A DNA stretch of 12,776 bases. Origin: Pavlovales sp. CCMP2436. Taxonomy: Eukaryota; Haptophyta; Pavlovophyceae; Pavlovales. Below are positions 1,520-12,776 of the stretch, one piece after another. A program made the translations under genes and the position numbers. Below the pieces are notes generated by a model. It saw only the letters and a list, made by a program, of their open reading frames with translations, was not told where the DNA came from and did no database searches. Location of the stretch: positions 51,832-64,607 of the forward strand of contig MU631814.1 in the NCBI GenBank assembly GCA_026770615.1, read 5' to 3'. How positions within the stretch are numbered: position 1 is the stretch's first letter; each line of letters opens with the position of its first letter.

Positions 1520-1888
1520 TCACTTGAAGTTTGAAATGTCCATCGGCGGGTGGTCCCAGCCGTTGAACTCGCATACGGACCCCCAGACGCGGTCGAGCTC
1601 CTGCAGCTTGGCCTGTGTCTTGAGTTGGGGAAAGTGCCTGAGCGTGTCCTCGCGGCCGATCAGCTGTAGCAGGCGGAATAGCAGGAAATTGTAGTTCAGT
1701 AGATTCTTCCGAGACGAGTGTTTAAATAGCCGAAACGGCTCCTGCACGCCTTCGAATATGCGGGCGAGGAGCAGCGTCTCGCTCTGCGAAATCGGCGGCG
1801 GGCGGTACTTGGTCACCCGGTTGATCACTTGCAGCCAGGATTCGTTGTAGCGCTGCAGGGCGCCACCATCAAGGCTGCGCGCTTCCAC
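1520..1888 (-). CDS. VLTF3-like late transcription factor, C-terminal part
   Basis: VLTF3 (poxvirus A2-type) proteins drive late viral transcription and are a core marker of nucleocytoplasmic large DNA viruses. Visible C-terminal hallmarks in order are YNESWLQVINRVT, PPPIS, IFEGVQEPF, SRKNLLNYNFLLFRLLQLIG, FPQLKTQAKLQELDRVW and VCEFNGW. These match the family pattern INR(I/V)T, PPP, EIQEPF, RKNFLSYSYVLYKF, FPLLKSREKL, D..W..IC...GW. The only start is GTG at 1888; an in-frame TAG lies three codons upstream and there is no shared upstream motif. At 122 residues it is much shorter than usual family members, so the N-terminal part, including any zinc-binding region, is missing or has moved. It ends with TGA at 1520-1522. 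Confidence 0.8.
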   Translation of the reverse strand: MEARSLDGGALQRYNESWLQVINRVTKYRPPPISQSETLLLARIFEGVQEPFRLFKHSSRKNLLNYNFLLFRLLQLIGREDTLRHFPQLKTQAKLQELDRVWGSVCEFNGWDHPPMDISNFK

Positions 1889-2571: not shown

Positions 2572-2808
2572 TCAGCTCGAGCGGAACGCCAGCGCGCAGA
2601 AGCTCTCAAAGTCGAGCCGCGTGAGCAGCCCGTTCCCCCTCGCCTTGTGCTTCAAGTCGCTCCACAGCACGAGCAGATCGCTCAGGTAGAGGGAGGCGAA
2701 CTCGCGCTCGCGCCAGGGGCCGCTGCGGTCGACGGGTCGACGGTCGCACACGCAGGCATAGCCGCACGCGTCGCAGTACGAGCCGGGCTCGGGCTGCTGC
2801 GCTTGCAT
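2572..2808 (-). CDS. 78-residue Cys-rich protein, unknown
   Basis: It starts at the ATG at 2808, 18 bases after a shared upstream motif. The N-terminal part has a cysteine cluster (YCDACGYACVCD, residues 11-22; C-x2-C-x3-C-x-C), which could bind a metal. A hydrophobic/aromatic helix follows (FASLYLSDLLVLWSDLKHKA, about residues 37-56), then LLTRLDFESFCALAF. It overlaps the 3' end of the resolvase frame by 127 bases in another frame; its own composition there is better than the resolvase tail. The family is not recognised. Confidence 0.55.
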   Translation of the reverse strand: MQAQQPEPGSYCDACGYACVCDRRPVDRSGPWREREFASLYLSDLLVLWSDLKHKARGNGLLTRLDFESFCALAFRSS

Positions 2809-3281
2809 CCTACAACTCGAGTTCCGAAAAAATGGGCGATCAGGAAGCTGTCCGCCAGGTCGTCGCGCTTGCGGCTCGCCTCGTAGCGCGCGCGCCACGG
2901 GTCGTCGTCGGCCTCGAGGCGCTTCGAGACCCACTCGACCGCGGCCGCCTTGTTGAGGCGGTAGTCGCCGCGGCTCAGCCCAAAGGCAGCCTTCACCGTG
3001 CGCGCGTGCACGACCGTGCACTTCGTGTAGAAGCTCAGATGGAGCAGCGCCTCTATGATTCGCATGTTCGCGCTCATCTGCTTCTCGATGACCACGTGGT
3101 CTGCCTCTCTGAACAGCTTCGCGTGCTTGTCCACGAAGGTCTTCACGAGGCGCACGTTGCTCGCCGGCTCGTACTTAGCATCCTCGCATAGCGCCTCATT
3201 GGCCCACTCCTCGATCTGCCCGTCGATTATAGCGCAGTAGGCGATATTGCGGACGCCCACGTCCACGGCGACCACGAGCAT
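2682..3281 (-). CDS. RuvC-like Holliday junction resolvase (poxvirus A22 type)
   Basis: This RNase H-fold endonuclease would resolve four-way junctions in replicated viral DNA before packaging. The ATG at 3281, 23 bases after a shared upstream motif, gives 199 residues; an in-frame GTG lies two codons earlier. Strand 1 is LVVAVDVGVRNIAYC (Asp7). HVVIEKQMSANMRIIEALL carries the second acidic residue (Glu66). KRDDLADSFLIAHFF (residues 138-152) carries the last acidic pair (Asp141/Asp144). All four acidic positions typical of RuvC/A22 enzymes are present, so it should be active if expressed. The fold ends near residue 152; the Ser/Pro/Ala-rich tail overlaps the next gene and may be an unselected extension or follow a frameshift. 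Confidence 0.85.
   Translation of the reverse strand: MLVVAVDVGVRNIAYCAIIDGQIEEWANEALCEDAKYEPASNVRLVKTFVDKHAKLFREADHVVIEKQMSANMRIIEALLHLSFYTKCTVVHARTVKAAFGLSRGDYRLNKAAAVEWVSKRLEADDDPWRARYEASRKRDDLADSFLIAHFFGTRVVGCKRSSPSPARTATRAAMPACATVDPSTAAAPGASASSPPST
2822..2832 (-). promoter_or_regulatory. Shared upstream motif (ttttttcggaa)
   Basis: The minus strand reads TTTTTTCGGAA about 18 bases before the ATG at 2808. It lies inside the 3' part of the resolvase frame. Confidence 0.55.
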
Positions 3282-3296
3282 GAGCACGCCACACGG

Positions 3297-3312: not shown

Positions 3313-3597
3313 CTAGAGGAAAAGGTACCCTGCCACCGCTCCCAGCACGGGCACGAGCACGAAGTGGACCTGCGTCTTCTCGTGTAGCTCGTCCTCGTCC
3401 GGGTCGACCTGGAACGTCTTGATCGCGCCATGCTCCGTGAAGAACGCCGCGGGCCACTTGGTCGCGTAGCAGACTAGCGTGGCCAGCGCGCCGACGATGA
3501 AGCCCCGCTTGAGGGGGGTGCCCGCGCCGACGAAACCGAGGAACTCCTCCACCGTCTGCGGGGCTCTGCGGACCGTCTCAAAGGAGAGCGCCTCCAT
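3313..3597 (-). CDS. Two-span small membrane protein, unknown
   Basis: I place the start at the ATG at 3597 (MEALSFETVRR...), giving 94 residues, because the shared motif TTTTTTCGGACGCGCGAC lies 27 bases upstream; the longer frame from 3639 would have the motif inside its coding sequence. Hydrophobic segments are GFIVGALATLVCYATKW and FVLVPVLGAVAGYLFL at the C-terminus, joined by an acidic linker (DPDEDELHEK). The shape fits a small virion membrane protein. It is followed directly by the resolvase. The family is not recognised. Confidence 0.6.
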   Translation of the reverse strand: MEALSFETVRRAPQTVEEFLGFVGAGTPLKRGFIVGALATLVCYATKWPAAFFTEHGAIKTFQVDPDEDELHEKTQVHFVLVPVLGAVAGYLFL

Positions 3598-3613
3598 CTG
3601 GTTCGGCTCTCGG

Positions 3614-3630
3614 TCGCGCGTCCGAAAAAA
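3614..3630 (-). promoter_or_regulatory. Shared upstream motif (ttttttcggacgcgcga)
   Basis: The minus strand reads TTTTTTCGGACGCGCGA, 27 bases before the ATG at 3597. This is one of the clearest examples of the motif, with a full T run, TCGG and CGCG. Confidence 0.65.
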
Positions 3631-3688
3631 GTAGCTCATTAAACAGAGAGAGGGGCAGCGCCAGAACCTATATTGATTGATGCAAGGA

Positions 3689-4197
3689 CTAAGAAGAGTC
3701 GATGATGGTGTTGGCGGCCCCGGTCGCGACGGACGCCATGGAGAGCAGCTTGCCCACGGTTCGGTTGCCGGCGCCTAAGGTCACTGCCCCGGACGCCACC
3801 ACCGTCCCGTAGAAGGTGTTGCCTGCGCCCATCGCGACGGTCCCGAGAACATGCCAAAAAATGTTTTTCGCCTGGGGCCCAACGCCGCCGTCGATCGGGA
3901 TCAGAATGATGTTCGCCATCGCACTGATACGCAGGTTCCCGCTCTCGCTGAATACGAACACGTCGATCGCCGTGCCGAGGAGCGCGACGGAGGTCGCCAC
4001 CGAAACGGCCGTGCTCCACTTGTACACTCCGGGGTAGAACGCGCGCCCGCCGATGACCCCCCCGGCCACATTGGTCTTTTCGGGAAGCGCCACGAGATTA
4101 ACGGTCGTGTTAATCGCCGCTTGCAAGTCCGCCAGTGCACCCTGTATAAACAGGGGGGTCGGCTGTGCGAGCCCTGTAGCATACACGAAGCCGCTGG
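3689..4197 (-). pseudogene. Ice-binding protein domain (DUF3494), C-terminal part of a split gene
   Basis: DUF3494 proteins fold as a beta-helix and bind ice crystals. The frame shows the family's second half: FVYATGLAQPTP, an amphipathic helix (LADLQAAINTT), GGRAFYPGVYKW, IDVFVFSESGNLRISAMANI, NIFWHVLGTVAMGAGNTFYG and VVASGAVTLGAGNRTVGKLL. It ends with TAG at 3689-3691. The first half of the same domain lies at 7692-7900 on the same strand, and the halves join in frame through a shared CTGG (4194-4197 and 7688-7691). No proper start or upstream motif belongs to this half; the ATG at 4186 is internal. Ice binding by the viral product is inference. Confidence 0.85.
4194..4197. other. Left breakpoint of split ice-binding gene (CTGG)
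   Basis: The CTGG at 4194-4197 matches the CTGG at 7688-7691. Removing 4198-7691 restores an uninterrupted ice-binding reading frame (…ALTS-GFVYATG…). It is either a 4-base target duplication or microhomology at a rearrangement. Confidence 0.75.
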
Positions 4198-5002
4198 AAG
4201 GCCGGTGTGGCCTGCTTGAGCGCTTCGTTCTGCAGATTGCCTAGGTTTAACCAGTAGAGCACTTGGTCGGATCTGGCCTTCTGCTCGGCGTCGAGCGGCA
4301 AAAGGTCGGAAATGGTGCCACCGATGCCAGTCAGTGTGTCGCTCGCCATGTTGAGCGGAGCCAGAATCGCCAGGGTGTTCGCCGTGTCCTGGTTGTACTG
4401 CGCGGCGTTTGACAAGTTGCGCGACGTTTGCATCGTGGCGGCCGAGTCCAGCATGGCCGCTATCTCCACGGGCGCCGTAACGATGCTGCCCACGCTCTGC
4501 AACACGCCGTCCGCGAGCGCCTTCTCGGCCGAGCCGGGCTTGAGGTCGGCAGTCGCCTGCGTGAGCGGATCGTCTATTTCAGCCGCCGCGGCATCGTACC
4601 CGCTCTGCCGCGCAACGTACTTCTCGAGCTCTGCGCTCTGCCCCGCAGTCTTGAGTTTGTCTTCGGTGCGCTGCTGCAGCTGGCCCTCGTTTACCATCTG
4701 GCTCAGGTCGCCAGCCATGCCGAGGATGCCCAGTCCGCTTCCCAGGTTGCCAATGCCACTCATCGCCAGCCTGCTCGGAAGTGCCAACTGCACGGCCTTG
4801 AACGTGCCCACTACCGCGAGATCGAATCCGACCGACCCAATGGCCATGGGCACGAGTTCCTTCATGACGCCCGCGATCTGCTCGCGCTGGCTCGGCGCCG
4901 GCGGCTCGCCCTCGGCTACCTGCTCGAGTAGTTCACCGTTGTTGCTCAAGGCGAGGTCTGGTGCGACGGTGGCGAGCGGTGCCGCTGCCTGCGTGCCGTC
5001 GG

Positions 5003-5031
5003 CGTTCTGCGCGTTCTGCGCGTTCTGCGCG
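5003..5031. repeat. 9-base tandem repeat (NAQ codons)
   Basis: About three copies of ttctgcgcg encode the Asn-Ala-Gln repeats at the N-terminus of the minus-strand gene starting at 5039. Confidence 0.75.
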
Positions 5032-5047
5032 TTGAGCATGAGCGTGA

Positions 5048-5170
5048 CACCCAGGCACGAAGCCGCCCAACCCCAGCTCGGTGGTCCTGCCGCTGGTGCG
5101 CGAGTGGATCGCGGCGGACGCGTCGCTGGTCGAGCTCCCCACGCGGCTCCCGAGCCACCAGCTGGAATAG
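5048..5170 (+). pseudogene. Unknown protein, 3' fragment
   Basis: The plus-strand frame reads PNPSSVVLPLVREWIAADAS and then LVELPTRLPSHQLE with TAG at 5168-5170. It looks like the natural C-terminus of a longer protein; an in-frame TGA at 5045-5047 and the start of the minus gene at 5039 mark the cut. The next plus-strand gene starts 37 bases later with its own upstream motif, as in a compact viral genome. The piece is too short to assign. Confidence 0.4.
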
Positions 5171-5172
5171 CG

Positions 5173-5188
5173 AAAATTCGGTGGCGCC
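5173..5188 (+). promoter_or_regulatory. Shared upstream motif (aaaattcggtggcgcc)
   Basis: AAAATTCGGTGGCGCC begins right after the TAG at 5168-5170 and lies about 28 bases before the ATG at 5208. Confidence 0.55.
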
Positions 5189-5207
5189 TCTCGAGACGCG
5201 CCGCCAG

Positions 5208-5531
5208 ATGTTCAAGCTCCTTGGAAAGCTGGTGCCCCCGCCCGCCGTGGTCAAGAAAGCCGTGCCCGCGGTGACGAGGCAGGCGCCTTCCAAGGCGCTC
5301 AAGGCGGTGCCGGCGCCGGCGGTGCTGAAGGGGCCGGCCGCCAATCTGGCCGACGCGCTCCCGACGTAGAAGCTCGTGAGCGCGAAGACCGCGGCGGTCG
5401 GCCTGGCGGTCGCAGGCGGCGCGACGCTGCTGCTCGGCGGCAAGCAGTTGCGCGGCGCGATTGCCGAGGCAACCGGCCTGGACCCGGCGGTGGTGCCATC
5501 ACCCAGGGCGGCCTTGGAGCCTCCTCGATAG
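5208..5531 (+). pseudogene. Small Ala/Val/Lys-rich membrane protein, internal TAG, 3' cut
   Basis: The ATG at 5208 follows the shared motif. The frame reads MFKLLGKLVPPPAVVKKAVP, Ala/Pro/Lys-rich repeats and PAANLADALPT, then TAG at 5367-5369. It continues in frame as KLVSAKTAAVGLAVAGGATL plus LLGGKQLRGAIAEATGLDP, giving a hydrophobic span after the stop. The even composition suggests one protein of about 100 residues interrupted by a nonsense change. From about 5505 the frame turns into antisense of the neighbouring minus-strand gene and ends at 5531, so its 3' end is lost. The basic N-terminus and single span would suit a virion protein, but I do not recognise it. Confidence 0.5.
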
Positions 5532-5652
5532 CCTCCGGCTCCTCCGCCGCCGCCGCCTCCAGCTGGTGCGTGGACCAGGCCATGTGCAGCAAGCACACGA
5601 TGAACAGCGCACTGCCGACCTCCGCAAGCACGTTCTCGGACGAGAACTGCAT
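5299..5652 (-). pseudogene. Short N-terminal membrane-anchor protein, 3'-truncated
   Basis: The ATG at 5652 opens MQFSSENVLAEVGSALFIVC, LLHMAWSTHQLE and an acidic Ala/Glu stretch (EAAAAEEPEAIEEA). This suggests an N-terminal membrane span near residues 10-26 and a cytoplasmic tail. Protein character stops after about residue 48 (position 5505); the remaining Arg/Pro-rich frame to 5299 is antisense of the plus-strand gene at 5208. It sits 25 bases after the stop of the upstream minus gene (5678) with no motif of its own, so it may share that gene's transcript. The family is not recognised. Confidence 0.4.
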
Positions 5653-5677
5653 CGGCGGACACCAAGTACTCTAGCGC

Positions 5678-5923
5678 TCAGATAATTTTCGGCTCGGCCG
5701 TCCTATACTGATCAAACGAGTCGCTAGAGTCGAAACGAATGGCCACTGGGTCGAAGCGGGGCGCCCCCTCGAGGCCCCCCGGCCCCTTGGCGACGGCCGC
5801 ACCCGCAATCGAGGCCACCGCCTCCGAATGCAGCTTGGCGTCGCGCTCGAGCGCGTGCCACGCGCTCGGCTCTAAGAGGTTGTACTTGCCGCGCATCCGC
5901 CCCTCGAACGCGTGGCTGAGCAT
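5678..5923 (-). CDS. 81-residue hydrophilic protein, unknown
   Basis: The ATG at 5923 lies 30 bases after the motif AAAATCGGACGC on the minus strand, supporting the start. The protein (MLSHAFEGRMRGKYNLLEPS..., ending DSFDQYRTAEPKII with TGA) is soluble, with a helical middle (HALERDAKLHSEAVASIAGA) and an Asp/Ser-rich tail. The opposite strand is also open, but its composition is poorer. The next minus-strand ORF begins 25 bases downstream. The family is not recognised. Confidence 0.5.
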   Translation of the reverse strand: MLSHAFEGRMRGKYNLLEPSAWHALERDAKLHSEAVASIAGAAVAKGPGGLEGAPRFDPVAIRFDSSDSFDQYRTAEPKII

Positions 5924-5946
5924 GGGAGACCGCTAATGTACATGCG

Positions 5947-5958
5947 GCGTCCGATTTT
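5947..5958 (-). promoter_or_regulatory. Shared upstream motif (aaaatcggacgc)
   Basis: The minus strand reads AAAATCGGACGCC, 30 bases before the ATG at 5923. The A/T run is A-type here, but TCGGACGC matches the site before the gene at 3597. Confidence 0.5.
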
Positions 5959-5983
5959 GTTGTTGTTTGCGGCTAACTAGAGA

Positions 5984-6523
5984 CTAGAGGCCCTCCCCCA
6001 TCTTGGCGAGCGCCGGGTCGAGCCTCTGCAGCAGGCCGCCCTGCCCGGTGTTCGCCAGGTGGACGGTCGTCACCGTGGTGACGACCAGCATCACGATTCG
6101 GAGCTCCACGCTCGCGGACACGTCCATGTTGTGCTTGATCATAAACTCGTTCAGCAGCGGCTCGAACGTCTTGAGCGACGCCTGCACCGTCTGCCCCAGG
6201 CCCCGCACCTGCAGGTTGAGCGGGTTGTACGCCTGCACGCCGTACTCGATCCCGTACATGGCCGCCAGGAAGGCCAGGTTGCCGGGCTTCAGCGAGCCCG
6301 CGGGCCCCGAATCCTCGCGCCCCAGCTGCTGCTCCACATAGTGCACCTCGTCGTGCAGCTCCATGAGGCTCGACTTGATCGAGAGCGTCCCGTTGCGCTT
6401 CTTCAGCTTGGGGAAGCGCTCGCGGTACTTGCCGATCCGGTCGAGGAGCGACTGGCGCTCCTCGAACTCGAGCAGCTCGCGGTCCGCCGCGCTCTCGGCC
6501 TTGGGCTTCGGCGCGGGCGGAAC
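5984..6523 (-). pseudogene. NCLDV structural-type protein resembling DUF5767, no start
   Basis: The frame reads PPAPKPKAESAADRELLEFE, RQSLLDRIGKYRERFPKLKK, an ELHDEVHYVEQQLG helix, KPGNLAFLAAMYGIEYGV, NPLNLQVRGLGQ, FEPLLNEFMIKHN, then SVELRIVMLVVTTVTTVHLA near the C-terminus. The order (paired helices, NPL..L..G, FEPLL..., S/PEL..., hydrophobic segment, H.AN) resembles the DUF5767-type virion proteins of NCLDVs from memory; this is tentative. Without readthrough there is no start: the frame opens directly after the TAG (6524-6526) of the discoidin-like gene and in the same frame. An internal ATG at 6362-6364 would give 126 residues but would drop conserved N-terminal sequence. Confidence 0.5.
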
Positions 6524-7549
6524 CTAGACCCCTTCCGGCTCGCCGATCGTCGCGACGCAGCCGAACGAGTTTTCGATGTAGTCGAACTGCACAGCGACGC
6601 TGCTAAGATCGTAACTCTGCATCATCCTACCGGTGCTGTCTTTCAGTGTGCACACCGCGGAGTCCAGGGGGTACTCATAGATGATTGGAGTCGTGTTCAG
6701 AGTCCACTCCGGCAGTAAGGCGACACCCGCAAAGAATGGGTTCCCTCCGCTGACTTCTTTGACCGAAAGCCGCCAGAACCTGTACGCCGAGTGCGCCTTG
6801 GTGATCGTAGATGTGTGCACTGCGGGCCAGCTGTAGAGCTCGACGGTCTGGATGATTTCAAACGGGCCTGCACTTTCGTTGGAGGCCGAGATGGTCCACT
6901 TTGTCATCTGAGACTCAGCGGTTGGCGCAGAAACGAGCGTGTACGACCTGAGCAGCACGCGACCTGGGTACTGTATCTGCACCCAGTCGAGGTCCAACGA
7001 CGGAGAGGTGCGGGGAGCAGGTGACGAGGCCCAGAACGTCCCGGTTGAGTCATATGCCGAGTTCCCGTCGAACGCCCTCCACTGTGTGTATTCGTTCGGC
7101 GCGATGCCAGTCCAGGCGTCTTTCTCGGCATCTGCGTTGCCACCCGTGATCGCCCACCCCTCATCGGGCCAGGCTGCATTGGGGGTGATCGTCGTGTACG
7201 AGGTGAACGCCGGGCTCGACACTGTCAGACTCTCGTCCGTGGGGGTATAATCGATGCCCGGGTAGGGGATTGCGTAGGCACTGCCCTTGGCGTCCGCGTC
7301 GCTGGAGCCGTCGCGCCACGCACGGTTCCGGAGGCTGCCCCACGCGAACAAGGCCACGCCCTCTGTGCCGTCGGCGGCGATGCCGGCGTTTCCGGCGTTT
7401 CCGGTGATCACGTCGGCGGAGAGCGAGGCCTTCTTGCGCACAACGAGCGCAGCTGTGTCGGCCGTCTCGGCCTTGACCGCGAACACATCGGAGACGTTCT
7501 GATGGACGTTTGCAAACTTGCGCGCGTACGGGCGCAGGATCGTGTACAT
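6524..7549 (-). CDS. Discoidin/F5-8C-like domain surface protein
   Basis: It has 341 residues from the ATG at 7549, which follows the shared upstream motif by 25 bases; the frame is open further upstream but that part lies over the divergent gene. The middle (about residues 140-255) resembles a galactose-binding-like F5/8 type C fold: WRAFDGNSAYDSTGTFWAS, LDWVQIQYPGRVLLRSYTLV, TKWTISASNESAGPFEII, YRFWRLSVKEVSGG. Such domains bind glycans or surfaces, so a virion attachment or decoration role is likely. A short NAGNAG repeat lies near residues 52-57. It ends with TAG at 6524-6526, after which the frame runs on into the DUF5767-like protein. The rest of the protein is not recognised. Confidence 0.65.
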   Translation of the reverse strand: MYTILRPYARKFANVHQNVSDVFAVKAETADTAALVVRKKASLSADVITGNAGNAGIAADGTEGVALFAWGSLRNRAWRDGSSDADAKGSAYAIPYPGIDYTPTDESLTVSSPAFTSYTTITPNAAWPDEGWAITGGNADAEKDAWTGIAPNEYTQWRAFDGNSAYDSTGTFWASSPAPRTSPSLDLDWVQIQYPGRVLLRSYTLVSAPTAESQMTKWTISASNESAGPFEIIQTVELYSWPAVHTSTITKAHSAYRFWRLSVKEVSGGNPFFAGVALLPEWTLNTTPIIYEYPLDSAVCTLKDSTGRMMQSYDLSSVAVQFDYIENSFGCVATIGEPEGV

Positions 7550-7570
7550 GCGCGCGCTCTGTTCGCCGGC

Positions 7571-7585
7571 CGCGAATTTTTTTTT
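7571..7585 (-). promoter_or_regulatory. Shared upstream motif (aaaaaaaaattcgcg), divergent region
   Basis: The minus strand reads AAAAAAAAATTCGCGG, 25 bases before the ATG at 7549. The same T/A run is seen from the plus strand as a T run followed by CTGTGCG before the ATG at 7620, so one 70-base spacer may serve both divergent genes. Confidence 0.55.
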
Positions 7586-7619
7586 CTGTGCGTACAGATA
7601 GCTAGCTATAGCTACCCAA

Positions 7620-7694
7620 ATGGACGTCGTCGAGTTGCCGCGCGAGGACGGCCCGCACCGGCCCGTCAAGGTCAAGGACTACATGTACTGGTGA
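7620..7694 (+). pseudogene. 5' fragment of an unknown gene
   Basis: The ATG at 7620 follows an AT-rich spacer with a T run. It encodes MDVVELPREDGPHRPVKVKD then YMYW, and meets TGA only because the sequence switches to the antisense of the ice-binding gene at 7688-7691. It reads like a genuine N-terminus cut at the breakpoint. It is divergent from the discoidin-like gene. I do not see its continuation elsewhere in the window. Confidence 0.45.
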
Positions 7695-8948
7695 GCGCGG
7701 TCGACGTGTAGTATTGGCCGTTCGCGGAGAGGACGAGCGGGCCCAACCCGGTGATAGCCGCCGACCCCATGTTCAGGCCGACGTCGCCCTTTAGGGGGAC
7801 TGCCGGTGTGATCGCGATGGACGTGCTCGCGAGCACGGCGAACTCCCCGGCGTTACCGAGGTTGACCAGGACAGGGACGATGACCGGCGCGACAACGGGC
7901 GGGCCTAACTGCGTGCTCGATAACTCCTCGCGGATCGTGATACTGGTATCCTCACCGGTGTAGAGCTCGAAGCCAGGTGACGCGAACGTCCCACTTGCGT
8001 ACGCTTCCATGTAGAAGTAATCGTTGGGCGCGCAGATGAACAGGCCCGTCGAGCTGAGCGTGTGGCCAAAGAGCCCATCCCTGACGGTGCCGTCGCCGAC
8101 AGCGTTGTCCAACCCTTCGAAGACGCGATAATTGCGCCGGACTGGCTCTTCACCGTGTTCCACCATTGCGATTGGCCGCGCATATGGGCGAGCGCGTGCA
8201 GGTTGACGGTGATGGCCAACGTGACCGAGGAGTCGTTGTAGAACCGCCCGGCTGTGTGCCTCAGCCGAGACGTTCCGTGGCTGGTAATGGCGCCCCCCCA
8301 GACCAGCGTGAAGTGCTCTCTGGTATTGCCTCCGACCGGGAAAGGCGATACGGGCAACGTGCGTCGAGTGATCGCAACCGCGCTCTCCAGCTTGCCGAGC
8401 GTACTCGAAATCTCTAATCGGGACAGTCCGAGTGCCAACGCCTCCGCGGTCGCCAGCTCGCCGAGCAGCTCGCTGAGTGAGACGCCGCCCACCTTCACGG
8501 CGCTCGCCACGGGCAGGCCGACCGCCCCCGCGAACTGCGATGCGCCGCGCACATGCAGGTCGTTTTCCAGCTGCACGGCGCCGCCCAGTTCCATGTCGGG
8601 CGCGAGGCGCGAGGCGTGCTCGGCGGCGGCGACTGCCGCGGGGAGGAGCTTCGGCCCACCAACCGGCGAGATGTGCACGTGCAACGAGTTGAAGGGGGCC
8701 GCCACGCTCAGGAAGGGGCCGTATGTGCCCGTGCCGGATGTGCCCACGGGCAACGCGCCGAGCCGCAGCGGCACCATCCCATTCGCATCTAGGTTGAGTC
8801 GATAGTACGCCAAAGTGGAAAATGGCGGGGGATTTGCCGGGAACGCGATGGTCGGCGAGAGCGAAACGTCGCCGTAGTAGCAGAGCGGGCAGTTTCTCTC
8901 GAAGACTACCGTGATCAGCTCCCCCGTCGATGCGTCGACTGGCAGCAG
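7672..8948 (-). pseudogene. Fibre-like protein with C1q-like jelly roll and N-terminal half of DUF3494 domain
   Basis: The frame is open from 8948 with no start: a TAG at 8949-8951 and foreign-looking DNA lie upstream. It reads ELITVVFERNCPLCYYGDVS, tail-fibre-like sequence (GTGTYGPFLSVAAPFNSLHV), a helical stretch, then FYNDSSVTLAITVNLHALAH, which resembles the start of a C1q/TNF-type jelly roll. Around 8115-8140 coding shifts by -1 and continues as GLFICAPNDYFYMEAYASGT and SITIREEL, matching the end of that fold. Next come a Val/Pro linker and DUF3494 strands: VNLGNAGEFAVLASTSIAIT, GDVGLNMGSAAITGLGPLVL, GQYYTSTALTS. The domain breaks at CTGG (7688-7691) and resumes at 4197. The role is probably a virion spike; binding to ice is inference. 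Confidence 0.7.
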
Positions 8949-9380
8949 CTATATATGAATGGATGAACAACAACATGATACACAGCATAGCCACCATCCT
9001 CCGCATTGACATAGCAGTAGCCACACACCTCGCCGACGGAAAGAAAGTTCACCGAACTCTAGATCTCTACCGCGCAGGCCCGCCCTGGCCACCCACCAAC
9101 GACACACCGCCACCCAAAGGAGCCTCACTGCCACCCACAGGGAGCTGCCCGTGGACACAAGAAGCACCAAGAACCGGAACCACACCGGGAGGAAGACCAC
9201 GCAAACCGCCAACATGCTATAACCAGACTAATGCGCACACCCAGAATGGCAGGCACAGAACCAATCAAAATTCGAGTTATACACAGCAACATCGCTTCCC
9301 ACTTTCGAGGAACTCTCGCACACACCATCACTCACCAGCAGACATAATGAAGTATAGAAAAGAAAGTTTATTCAGCTAAG
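8949..9380. other. A/C-skewed non-viral-looking block, no convincing gene
   Basis: From about 8950 the plus strand becomes rich in A and C and poor in G and T (for example cacccaccaacgacacaccg), unlike the GC-balanced flanks. A 149-residue plus frame (8930-9379) is Thr/Pro/His/Asn-rich without structure, and a minus frame gives a Val/Leu/Cys/Trp-rich string; both look like products of skewed composition. The left edge coincides with the 5' cut of the fibre gene. It could be host DNA or part of a transposon. Confidence 0.45.
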
Positions 9381-10640
9381 AGGAGGATTATTGAAGTCAC
9401 CCTGTCCCGCCGGCTAGAGACCCCTTGTTGGGAATCGTGGCCGGGGGAAGGCGATCGTCGCCATCGCATAAGAGGGCCGGTCTGGCGAGCTGTGCAGAGC
9501 GCACGTCATTCCGCCTTAATATTATTATATAATCGACTCAATAAAGAGGCCCAATTCAGGCTTTTGCCTACGTGACAGGCGCTTCCGGGCCCGCTCTCTC
9601 TCGAGCCCCCCCCCCAAAAAACCTACTTTCGTCCCGCCCAGACCTCCCTCCCCCGGCACCCCCCAAACCTATAATAACCTATAATGATGATGATGATGAT
9701 GTTGACCCTTCTGACACACCCCCTAGCTCTAGGCTAGTTGGGGAGGTGGCTTTCATGTTATCTGCAGTGGGAGGGGGCGCTCAGCCCCCCTGTGCAGCAA
9801 TCAGCTTTGGCGAAGATGGCTACACTGTGTGTGTGCTCGACGGGTAGCCACACGACGACGCGGCCCACGATGCGTCGCCCGGCGGTGAGTGTTCTGGGTG
9901 GGATGCGACCCCCGTTGATGCACCTGAATGCGGTCCCCAAGTCTCGCGAGCAGGCTGGACGACTCGCTGTAGCAGCGTGCCGTACATCGGCATTCACCGG
10001 ACAAGCCCGGTGATTCGTCGGTGGTCGAGTGCCGTTAATTTGACACGCTGTCAATTGGCAGCACTGGGCCCGGGATCCGGAGTGGCTCCGGCTTCGGTGG
10101 CTTCGACGATGGCGCAGATGATGCGCTCGCCTCGGCGGCCGGCTTCGACGTCATCTTCTGTCGGAAGCACGTGCGGCTTCTCTTGCTGCGCGTGCGAGTG
10201 GTGCTGCTGTGTCGGCCTGGCGGATAGCGCGGACTGCAAAGCCCGATTCTGCGCGGCGTTCCAGCACCAGATCGGTCAACGAGGGATCCGTTGACGGCGG
10301 ATCGGGCCGTCGACGTGGGTTGGATTGGTACTCCTCCGTCCCCATCTCGTTGTTCCTAAACTGCGGCGGCTGCGGCTGCGGCTGCGAGCAAGGTGCCTGG
10401 GCCATCGAGGTCCAGGCAGGTCGCGCGCGTGGTGCCGCTGAAGCGCCGGGGTCGTCTTTGTCTGCTTCATCACCTGGACAACCTAAAACCTAGTAAAACT
10501 GCAACTACATGATTTTCTTCTTCAAAAAACCTAACTATCTCAGAAGCCCTGGCAGCGAGCTTTGAAACCCCGGCGACGAGGAAGACTGTAAATATTAACC
10601 TCGAAGATCCGTCACTGATTCAATTTCAACTTAATTTGAC
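9381..10640. other. Gene-poor region with weak frames
   Basis: No recognisable gene. An AATAAA word (9539-9545 region) might be a polyadenylation signal. The plus frame from 9572 to 10294 is open except for a TAG at 9845-9847. Overlapping minus frames include a Gln/Pro-rich one (10151-10405, MAQAPCSQPQPQPPQFRNNE) that could join by frameshift to 10051-10239 (DVEAGRRGERIICAIVEATE). Neither strand shows a known domain. The 10440-10640 part is AT-richer and holds nothing visible. Confidence 0.35.
9684..9701. repeat. ATG/GAT trinucleotide microsatellite
   Basis: Six tandem copies of the triplet follow two copies of cctataat. This is typical of eukaryotic nuclear DNA. Confidence 0.85.
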
Positions 10641-10987: not shown

Positions 10988-12250
10988 TCATGCGAGGTGG
11001 TCCTGGCGCTGCGCCCGGCGAGGGCCGCGTGCCGCGTGCAGGACGAGGCGCGCCGGCATGCTGCGGCCGAGCGCGTGCGCCATCACGACCGGCCACGCGT
11101 CGAGCAGCGCGCCCTCAACGCCCGCGAAGCGCGCCTCCCGAACGAGCAGCTGGCCGAGCCGCAGCAGCTCGGCCGCGCGAGCGCGCACGTGCGCGGGGAA
11201 GAGCGCGTGGTTCTCGCGCGACCAGGGGGCCGCCGCCGCCACCACCAGAGAAGCGCCCTCGTGCGCCGGGTCGCGCGCGAGCAGCGCGTGCGCGAGCCCG
11301 AGCGGCGTGGGCGCGCCGTCGCCGCCGCCGCCGCTCGCGTCGTCTTCGCTGCCGTAGCTCAACAAATCGTAAGCGTCGCCGCTCGCGTGCACGTCCGCCC
11401 CGCCCACGAGGAGCTGGCGCACGCGCGCTGGCGTGAGGAACTCGAGGTGGTGCAGCTGCGTGCTCCAGCGTCTCGTCTCGCGCACCCACGCGTGGCAATC
11501 GGCGGGCGCGTATTCATTGCTCAGCTTACCGCGCCACGCGCCGTAGGCGCAGAGCAGCTGCACCACGCAGAGCCGGCCGCTTCCCCATGTGAGCGCGGTG
11601 TTCTTCTCATCAAATTCATTGTCATCCGCTTCCACGTCAGCGCCCGCCTCGAGCAGGACGGTCAAAAGGTCGATGCGCGCGCAGGCGGGCGCTGACGTGC
11701 GTGCGACATATGCGCCGGGGAAATCGGTGTCAGCTTCGTCGCACCTTGCGCTCGCTATCATCAGCGCAGTGCAGCCATGCACCCCGGCGTAGTTCACGTC
11801 GGCGCCGGCTGCGAGCAGGAGGCGCGCGCACTCGACGTGGCCCCCGAGACTCGCCGCTAGCAGCGCGCTGCTGCACCTCATACCGGCGAGGTTCACGTCG
11901 GCGCCGGCCTCGAGCAGGAGGCGCGCGCACTCGGCGTGGCCATTGCCGCTCGCCACCACCAGCGAGGTGTATGTCCCCCCGGTAGAGACATCCACCACGG
12001 CGTGGTTCACGTCGGCGCCCGCCTCGATCAGGGCGCGCGCACGGCCCACGTCCCCAGCGTCGCACGCCGCGTGGAGCTCCTCGTCTCGCCCACGATCATC
12101 GACGCCGTCGAGCAGGATCGTGCCGCTGCGGCCCACGGCGAAGTCAGGCTCGGCCTCAAGCGTCAGGTCGATCTCGATCGGGAGTGCGCGAGGGGAGGGC
12201 GGCTCCAGCCCGCGGCCCGGGTCCAGAGCCGCCATCGGCCCAAGGCACAC
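10988..12250 (-). CDS. Ankyrin-repeat protein
   Basis: This 420-residue frame starts at 12250; an in-frame ATG at 12235 (MAALDPG) is an alternative. Residues 1-55 are a non-repeat leader. Ankyrin repeats follow: ELHAACDAGDVGRARALIEA-GADVN, SLVVASGNGHAECARLLLEA-GADVN, ALLAASLGGHVECARLLLAA-GADVN, ALMIASA, LLTVLLEAGADVEA, and weaker ones ending at LLVGGADVHA. The C-terminal part has a distinct segment, PWSRENHALFPAHVRARAAE, LLRLGQLLVRE, LLDAWPVVMAHALG, which recalls a tail found on many algal and giant-virus ankyrin proteins (from memory, not checked). The last 20 or so Arg-rich residues are doubtful. It probably mediates host protein binding. There is no shared upstream motif, so it may be host-derived or under other control. 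Confidence 0.8.
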   Translation of the reverse strand: MCLGPMAALDPGRGLEPPSPRALPIEIDLTLEAEPDFAVGRSGTILLDGVDDRGRDEELHAACDAGDVGRARALIEAGADVNHAVVDVSTGGTYTSLVVASGNGHAECARLLLEAGADVNLAGMRCSSALLAASLGGHVECARLLLAAGADVNYAGVHGCTALMIASARCDEADTDFPGAYVARTSAPACARIDLLTVLLEAGADVEADDNEFDEKNTALTWGSGRLCVVQLLCAYGAWRGKLSNEYAPADCHAWVRETRRWSTQLHHLEFLTPARVRQLLVGGADVHASGDAYDLLSYGSEDDASGGGGDGAPTPLGLAHALLARDPAHEGASLVVAAAAPWSRENHALFPAHVRARAAELLRLGQLLVREARFAGVEGALLDAWPVVMAHALGRSMPARLVLHAARGPRRAQRQDHLA

Positions 12251-12615: not shown

Positions 12616-12776
12616 GGGCTACCGTATCTAGTCAAGGGATCAAACAAGGGATATATCCCTCCCCAAAAATCTATCCTCCTAGAAAGCTAGTTTTTTTTTT
12701 TTGCTGGTTCCCCAACATCTGAATTTTTAAAATCGGCGTGGGCTACTGTACCTATCCAAGGGATCAAACAAGGGAT
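12616..12776. repeat. 37-base direct repeat, two copies
   Basis: gggctaccgtatctagtcaa (12616 onward) continuing through gggatcaaacaagggat to 12652 recurs at 12740-12776 with four mismatches. The second copy runs off the window. Each contains two aagggat words. Confidence 0.85.
12633..12688 (-). repeat. Right copy of terminal inverted repeat
   Basis: Read on the minus strand, this matches 111-167: TAGGAGGATAGATTTTTGGGG, then AGGGATATATCCCT and a second ATCCCTTG. An A-rich tract (T run on the plus strand, 12691-12702) lies on the outer side, as at the left end. Confidence 0.7.

Follow-up and report, generated by a model that had tools for sequence, protein, structure and literature searches.

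Introduction

The haptophyte alga Pleurochrysis is a host for the mriyavirus group. Another haptophyte host of this group, Phaeocystis antarctica, is named in a review, which also mentions antifreeze homologues in polar giant viruses (PMC13335480), and erosion of giant-virus elements was described for Euglena (PMC12455990). In this work, we analyzed a stretch of 12,776 nucleotides from the haptophyte Pavlovales sp. CCMP2436 (assembly GCA_026770615.1, contig MU631814.1), in which a domain of the DUF3494 (ice-binding) family is split in two by a block of 3,494 bp. Comparison with relatives elsewhere in the genome suggests that this domain once terminated a viral fibre gene, and that the block consists of at least four rearranged pieces of viral DNA.

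The whole stretch, called here the window, corresponds to C480:51832-64607; its right end is the scaffold end, and a 16.7-kb run of N (C480:35156-51831) lies to its left. Relatives were sought in the same genome (119.35 Mb, 703 contigs). Gene and piece calls were based on Pfam profiles with their cut-offs and on BLAST comparisons with open reading frames (ORFs) and loci of the genome; in the genome-wide DNA comparison of the window only the best candidates were scored.

Results

A preliminary description of this locus, made from the sequence alone, had reported an ice-binding gene split by a block, with both halves on one strand and able to rejoin in frame, and the comparison with relatives bears out this arrangement. 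The minus strand of 3689-4198 matched the Pfam Ice_binding profile (PF11999) with E 7.9e-29 and 101.2 bits (cut-off 28.7), which assigns this C-terminal part (3689-4197) to the DUF3494 family, ice binding being a predicted property. Because the match covered only positions 48-201 of the 208 in the profile, the N-terminal part is absent from this segment. A candidate for it was found on the same strand at about 7692-7900; by itself it gave no Pfam match, and it resembled DUF3494 ORFs at other loci of this genome, most of all L049 (43.6%, E 4e-12). The two halves lie 3,494 bp apart and in phase, one spare base at the end of the N half and two at the start of the C half making up one codon, a fit expected by chance in one case of three.

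The genome contains 31 matches to PF11999. When the halves, never joined, were compared separately with the ORFs of 19 other DUF3494 loci, the C half was matched by 18 ORFs (17 loci), 12 of which, at 12 loci, matched the N half as well, and one more ORF matched the N half only. Each of these 12 ORFs placed the halves end to end, with -1, 0 or +1 residues between them (+1 is expected from the split codon), thus the cut lost nothing, within a residue or two.

The tetranucleotide CTGG, noticed before at both edges of the block, indeed occurs at 4194-4197 (left edge, junction J1) and at 7688-7691 (right edge, J5). When 200,000 blocks of 3,494 bp were placed at random in the window, 4,056 of them (2.0%) had an edge repeat of at least four bases, and as a sign of something more than chance it is suggestive, not strong. 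At J5, the match to a provirus located on contig C246 and about 96% identical departs after 7689, so at least GG (7690-7691), and perhaps the whole CTGG, would be fibre-gene sequence present twice. A transposon with its own ends was also considered and rejected: among the 25 longest of 234 inverted-repeat pairs none links the two edges, in agreement with the earlier observation.

The nature of the interrupted gene was understood differently at first. It had been taken for an ice-binding gene split by a captured piece of viral-type DNA, and that this is one piece in an otherwise normal ice-binding gene is not supported, since the flanks belong to the same virus lineage as the block (both match C246 at 95-97%) and the DUF3494 gene appears to be the end of a viral fibre. 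Upstream of the N half lies a fibre stem, F (7901-8948, minus strand, 5' part missing), 37-43% identical to the fibre stems of six proviruses, with a shift of the reading frame between the stem and the DUF3494 part. Downstream of the C half lies TM (3313-3639, minus strand), a gene for a small membrane protein which follows the viral fibre in relatives. Copies of TM were located with the fused protein P0001 of Pavlovales sp. CCMP2436, which is 83-99% identical to C536 over the longest stretches. TM has 13 other matches in the genome, eight of which (C536, C103, C377, C446, C52, C84, C95, C210) are preceded on their own strand, at a distance of less than 1 kb, by a match to the fibre; the remaining five are C423, C62 and C72 (all three further apart), C246 (no fibre match) and C134 (a short partial match). 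Because TM directly follows the fibre in these eight places, and in the window the place of the fibre end upstream of TM is occupied by the DUF3494 C part, the latter is best explained as the 3' terminus of a viral fibre gene. Judged by its position after the stem, on the same strand and directly before TM, DUF3494 appears to have been the C-terminal tip of the virus's own fibre.

The cut 5' end of the stem is adjoined by a dispersed repeat (8958-9533), three other copies of which (L005, L007, L008) share extra sequence on the 8958 side and diverge past 9533, the side with an AT-rich tail at its end. The repeat resembles a retroelement that has been truncated.

A trace of the same tip was found in the C246 provirus (L003 1501-3359, C246:128765-130623). 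Nearly the whole fibre-DUF3494 gene has been lost there, and a 42-bp DUF3494 tail is left between TM, which carries a stop in this copy, and a small viral gene; this remnant shows that another copy, likewise broken, had such a tip. Closest to the N half is L049 397-2145 (C139), which encodes a 583-aa protein with DUF3494 in its C part but not in its N part; PF11999 is also present in a CCMP2436 protein that shares 67% identity with this N part. For C139 as a candidate second viral DUF3494 fibre, three neighbouring ORFs had no Pfam match, and eight viral proteins gave no match at E <0.4. In the protein collection, the C210 fibre (L027), with the best 7,995 candidates scored, matched at least two proteins, both from Pavlovales sp. 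CCMP2436; the DUF3494 C half matched five proteins in that collection at 30-36%. Viral contigs gave three pattern matches for the L049 protein and eight for the DUF3494 C half, none of which was confirmed.

The block itself had been described as a captured piece of viral-type DNA. Its viral character is supported, but it does not appear to be one piece, as at least four rearranged ones can be distinguished, one of them holding the N-terminal part of a gene of the same type as the gene that is interrupted. Piece 1 (4198 to about 5053, minus strand) contains gene X, 42-45% identical to four relatives whose frames continue 120-194 residues further, so its 3' end is missing at the left edge, as reported previously; its 5' end is probably cut too, the right limit being set by the start of the C246 match at 5054. 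Piece 2 (5054-5485, plus strand; C246:31530-31963, 97%) holds the end of a YqaJ nuclease gene and the start of gene P. Each of these genes is cut, and an in-frame stop interrupts P at about 5367; the C246 counterpart is one YqaJ-P frame of 410 aa. Piece 3 (5483-6530, minus strand; C246:29227-30263, 95%) carries small ORFs and a DUF5767 gene without its start (PF19071, E 5.8e-10), the C246 frame being 231 aa long. Piece 4 comprises Z (6531-7575, minus strand), which encodes the N-terminal part of a viral fibre, a discoidin-like stretch included, and lacks its 3' part, and the start of the small viral gene (7576-7689, plus strand; C246:129441-129558, 80%). The latter, previously noted as a plus-strand gene reduced to 24 codons, starts with the ATG at 7620 and is cut at 7689, up to which it matches a 59-codon ORF in C246.

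Z is 46-58% identical to the fibre N parts of six proviruses and ends where the relatives continue into the stem. In six other proviruses a single gene contains Z and then F, without a frame change in C52, C62 and C210 and in neighbouring frames in C84, C377 and C536, and their order is opposite to that in the window. The 45-53 residues that separate Z from F in the four proviruses measured are absent here. Derivation of Z and F from one copy of the gene would fit this, and we infer it with caution. At 6521-6530, a stop codon beside J4 separates Z from the DUF5767 frame, both being in the same reading frame. Z and the small gene may or may not have been adjacent before the rearrangement: in C246 the small gene adjoins the 42-bp DUF3494 remnant beside TM, which favours an old neighbourhood, but X usually neighbours the fibre, in divergent orientation at 10 of 14 other X matches, and this casts doubt on it. 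That X and the fibre are not so placed in the window supports the rearrangement. No X-fibre neighbourhood was found at C114, C663, C6 and C281.

Of the eight piece ends, six (X 3', YqaJ, P, DUF5767, Z and the small gene) fall within genes, the X 5' end and the end at 5483 being the other two. The similarity to C246 breaks off at or next to J2 (5054), J3 (5483-5487), J4 (6530) and J5 (7689), four of the five junctions; at J1, the X side has no close relative. At J3 and J5 the two sides overlap by about 2 bp. The capture of a single piece, as first envisaged, would agree with genes cut at both edges and with clean DUF3494 halves, but pieces 2 and 3 lie in C246 in the opposite relative orientation and 1.3 kb apart, and the flanks are viral as well, so that we regard such capture as very improbable.

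Joins with little homology, together with retained ends bearing a repeat of 2-4 bp, fit the repair of breaks by end-joining. Given also the gene-internal cuts and the new order and orientation of the pieces, the most likely explanation, which we favour with moderate confidence, is a decayed provirus whose broken DNA was end-joined into the cut in DUF3494, in one or several events. Several breaks would have occurred in the viral DNA of a provirus of a small, mriyavirus-like DNA virus in the alga. The cut in DUF3494 would have retained both of its ends, with 2-4 bp (GG to CTGG) seemingly duplicated, as by fill-in of a staggered break, and at least four viral fragments, mostly cut within genes, would have been joined into it with their order and orientation changed and, at the junctions where it is measurable, an overlap of about 2 bp.

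Two points speak against this explanation: no junction has a second copy in the genome among the best candidates scored, and the junctions are known from the assembly alone. The window, situated between a run of N and a scaffold end, could thus represent an assembly or library chimera. Such an artefact would need five joins within 3.5 kb, and where overlaps can be measured they are about 2 bp, less than a common misassembly through overlapping reads would require; we therefore consider it unlikely. Rearrangement of the virus genome before integration, in a defective or recombinant virus, would account for every piece being viral and similarly identical to C246, and these viruses encode a YqaJ nuclease and a resolvase; nevertheless, the junctions are shared by no other locus among the best candidates scored, and the probability of this scenario seems low. 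A stronger competitor of end-joined breakage is stepwise decay, in which the mosaic would have built up over a long time, by several individual insertions, inversions and deletions affecting copies of the provirus, rather than in one episode. Related copies are many (14 other X matches, DUF5767 on 12 other contigs), and C246 has independently lost nearly its entire fibre gene. The window has no second copy of any block gene, as would be expected more readily of pieces from one copy, but this is a weak point, and we give stepwise decay a substantial chance, if somewhat short of even.

The flanks are viral and of the same lineage as the block, and the genome holds many related mriyavirus-like proviruses. 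On the left, 3088-3649 matches C246:128765-129326 at 96%, and DNA matches of the flank and of pieces 2 and 3 to this provirus range within 95-97%. An A22/RuvC-type Holliday junction resolvase is predicted at 2682-3287 on the minus strand (Pox_A22, E 9.2e-09, 36 bits, cut-off 22), and the C-terminal part of the late transcription factor VLTF3, lacking its start, at 1520-1888 on the same strand (PF04947 on C480:53384-53686, window 1553-1855, profile 66-167 of 168, 70.9 bits, cut-off 25). No major capsid protein (MCP) was detected by profile search in the window itself; in relatives, Capsid_N reached 42.6 bits in C84 and 29.8 bits in C246 (cut-off 24), and Capsid_NCLDV in C84 31.3 bits, below the cut-off of 34.8. 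The C84 MCP gave no pattern match in viral contigs. C246 also has YqaJ and a protein with a Pox_A32 (A32-type packaging ATPase) score of 20.8 bits, below the cut-off of 22.8, and the C84 gene set looks alike by eye. The combination of MCP, resolvase and VLTF3, with the candidate A32-like ATPase, points to a mriyavirus-like virus.

The segment 1844-2135, which in C84 is situated beyond the 949-1320 gene, here adjoins VLTF3 at its truncated start, which makes a rearrangement in the left part of the window probable as well. At 10988-12250 lies an ankyrin-repeat gene that belongs to a multi-copy family, other loci being 72-78% identical to it at the DNA level. An inverted repeat lies near both window ends (93-140 and 12655-12702, 73% over 48 nt); it was set aside as a candidate for the ends of an element, and a similar stretch is present twice, 110 bp apart, in C294. 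No RNA families (at gathering score) and no tRNAs were found within the window.

Discussion

Decayed proviruses are common, and a split viral gene is as such ordinary; truncated endogenous small DNA viruses of haptophytes were already known. The most novel part of our results is the viral fibre tipped by DUF3494, a combination not met among the papers listed on ice-binding or DUF3494 proteins and on algal or polinton-like viruses. A fibre ending in a domain of the ice-binding type, in a genome rich in such domains, bears on the movement of such genes among polar algae and on the targets to which viral fibres bind. The well-marked junctions, in turn, make the repair of broken proviral DNA readable in a haptophyte.

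It is tempting to speculate, as a tentative proposal that we hold to be rather doubtful, that a mriyavirus of polar algae used DUF3494 as a working fibre tip, acquired when tip domains were exchanged (in relatives the tip is discoidin-like) and perhaps gripping ice or ice-associated hosts. The provirus would later have been shattered and rejoined in one episode, with the fibre gene left in three pieces.

With mriyaviruses (candidate family Gamadviridae; Yutin et al. 2024, PMC11253617), the present viruses share the MCP type, an A22-type resolvase, VLTF3 and, as a candidate below its cut-off, an A32-like ATPase, found in the window or in its relatives. The Nucleocytoviricota-type MCP of the relatives, VLTF3 and the resolvase point to a mriyavirus-like virus (Gamadviridae), a class set by these three traits from partial copies; the traits of that group also include VLTF2, an HUH endonuclease and a genome of 35-45 kb. 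Unlike mriyaviruses, the present viruses have a YqaJ-type nuclease not orthologous to the mriyavirus enzyme (PMC11253617), and the copy in the window is integrated, cut up and decayed. The endogenous polinton-like and giant-virus elements of Phaeocystis likewise represent small DNA viruses that became integrated in a haptophyte, with truncation of many copies, but the sections of that report considered here describe no mosaic inside a fibre gene and no DUF3494 tip (PMC12480563). The DUF3494 ice-binding proteins of Arctic algae belong to the same domain family (PMC9756366), whereas here the domain appears to end a viral fibre gene, and is broken.
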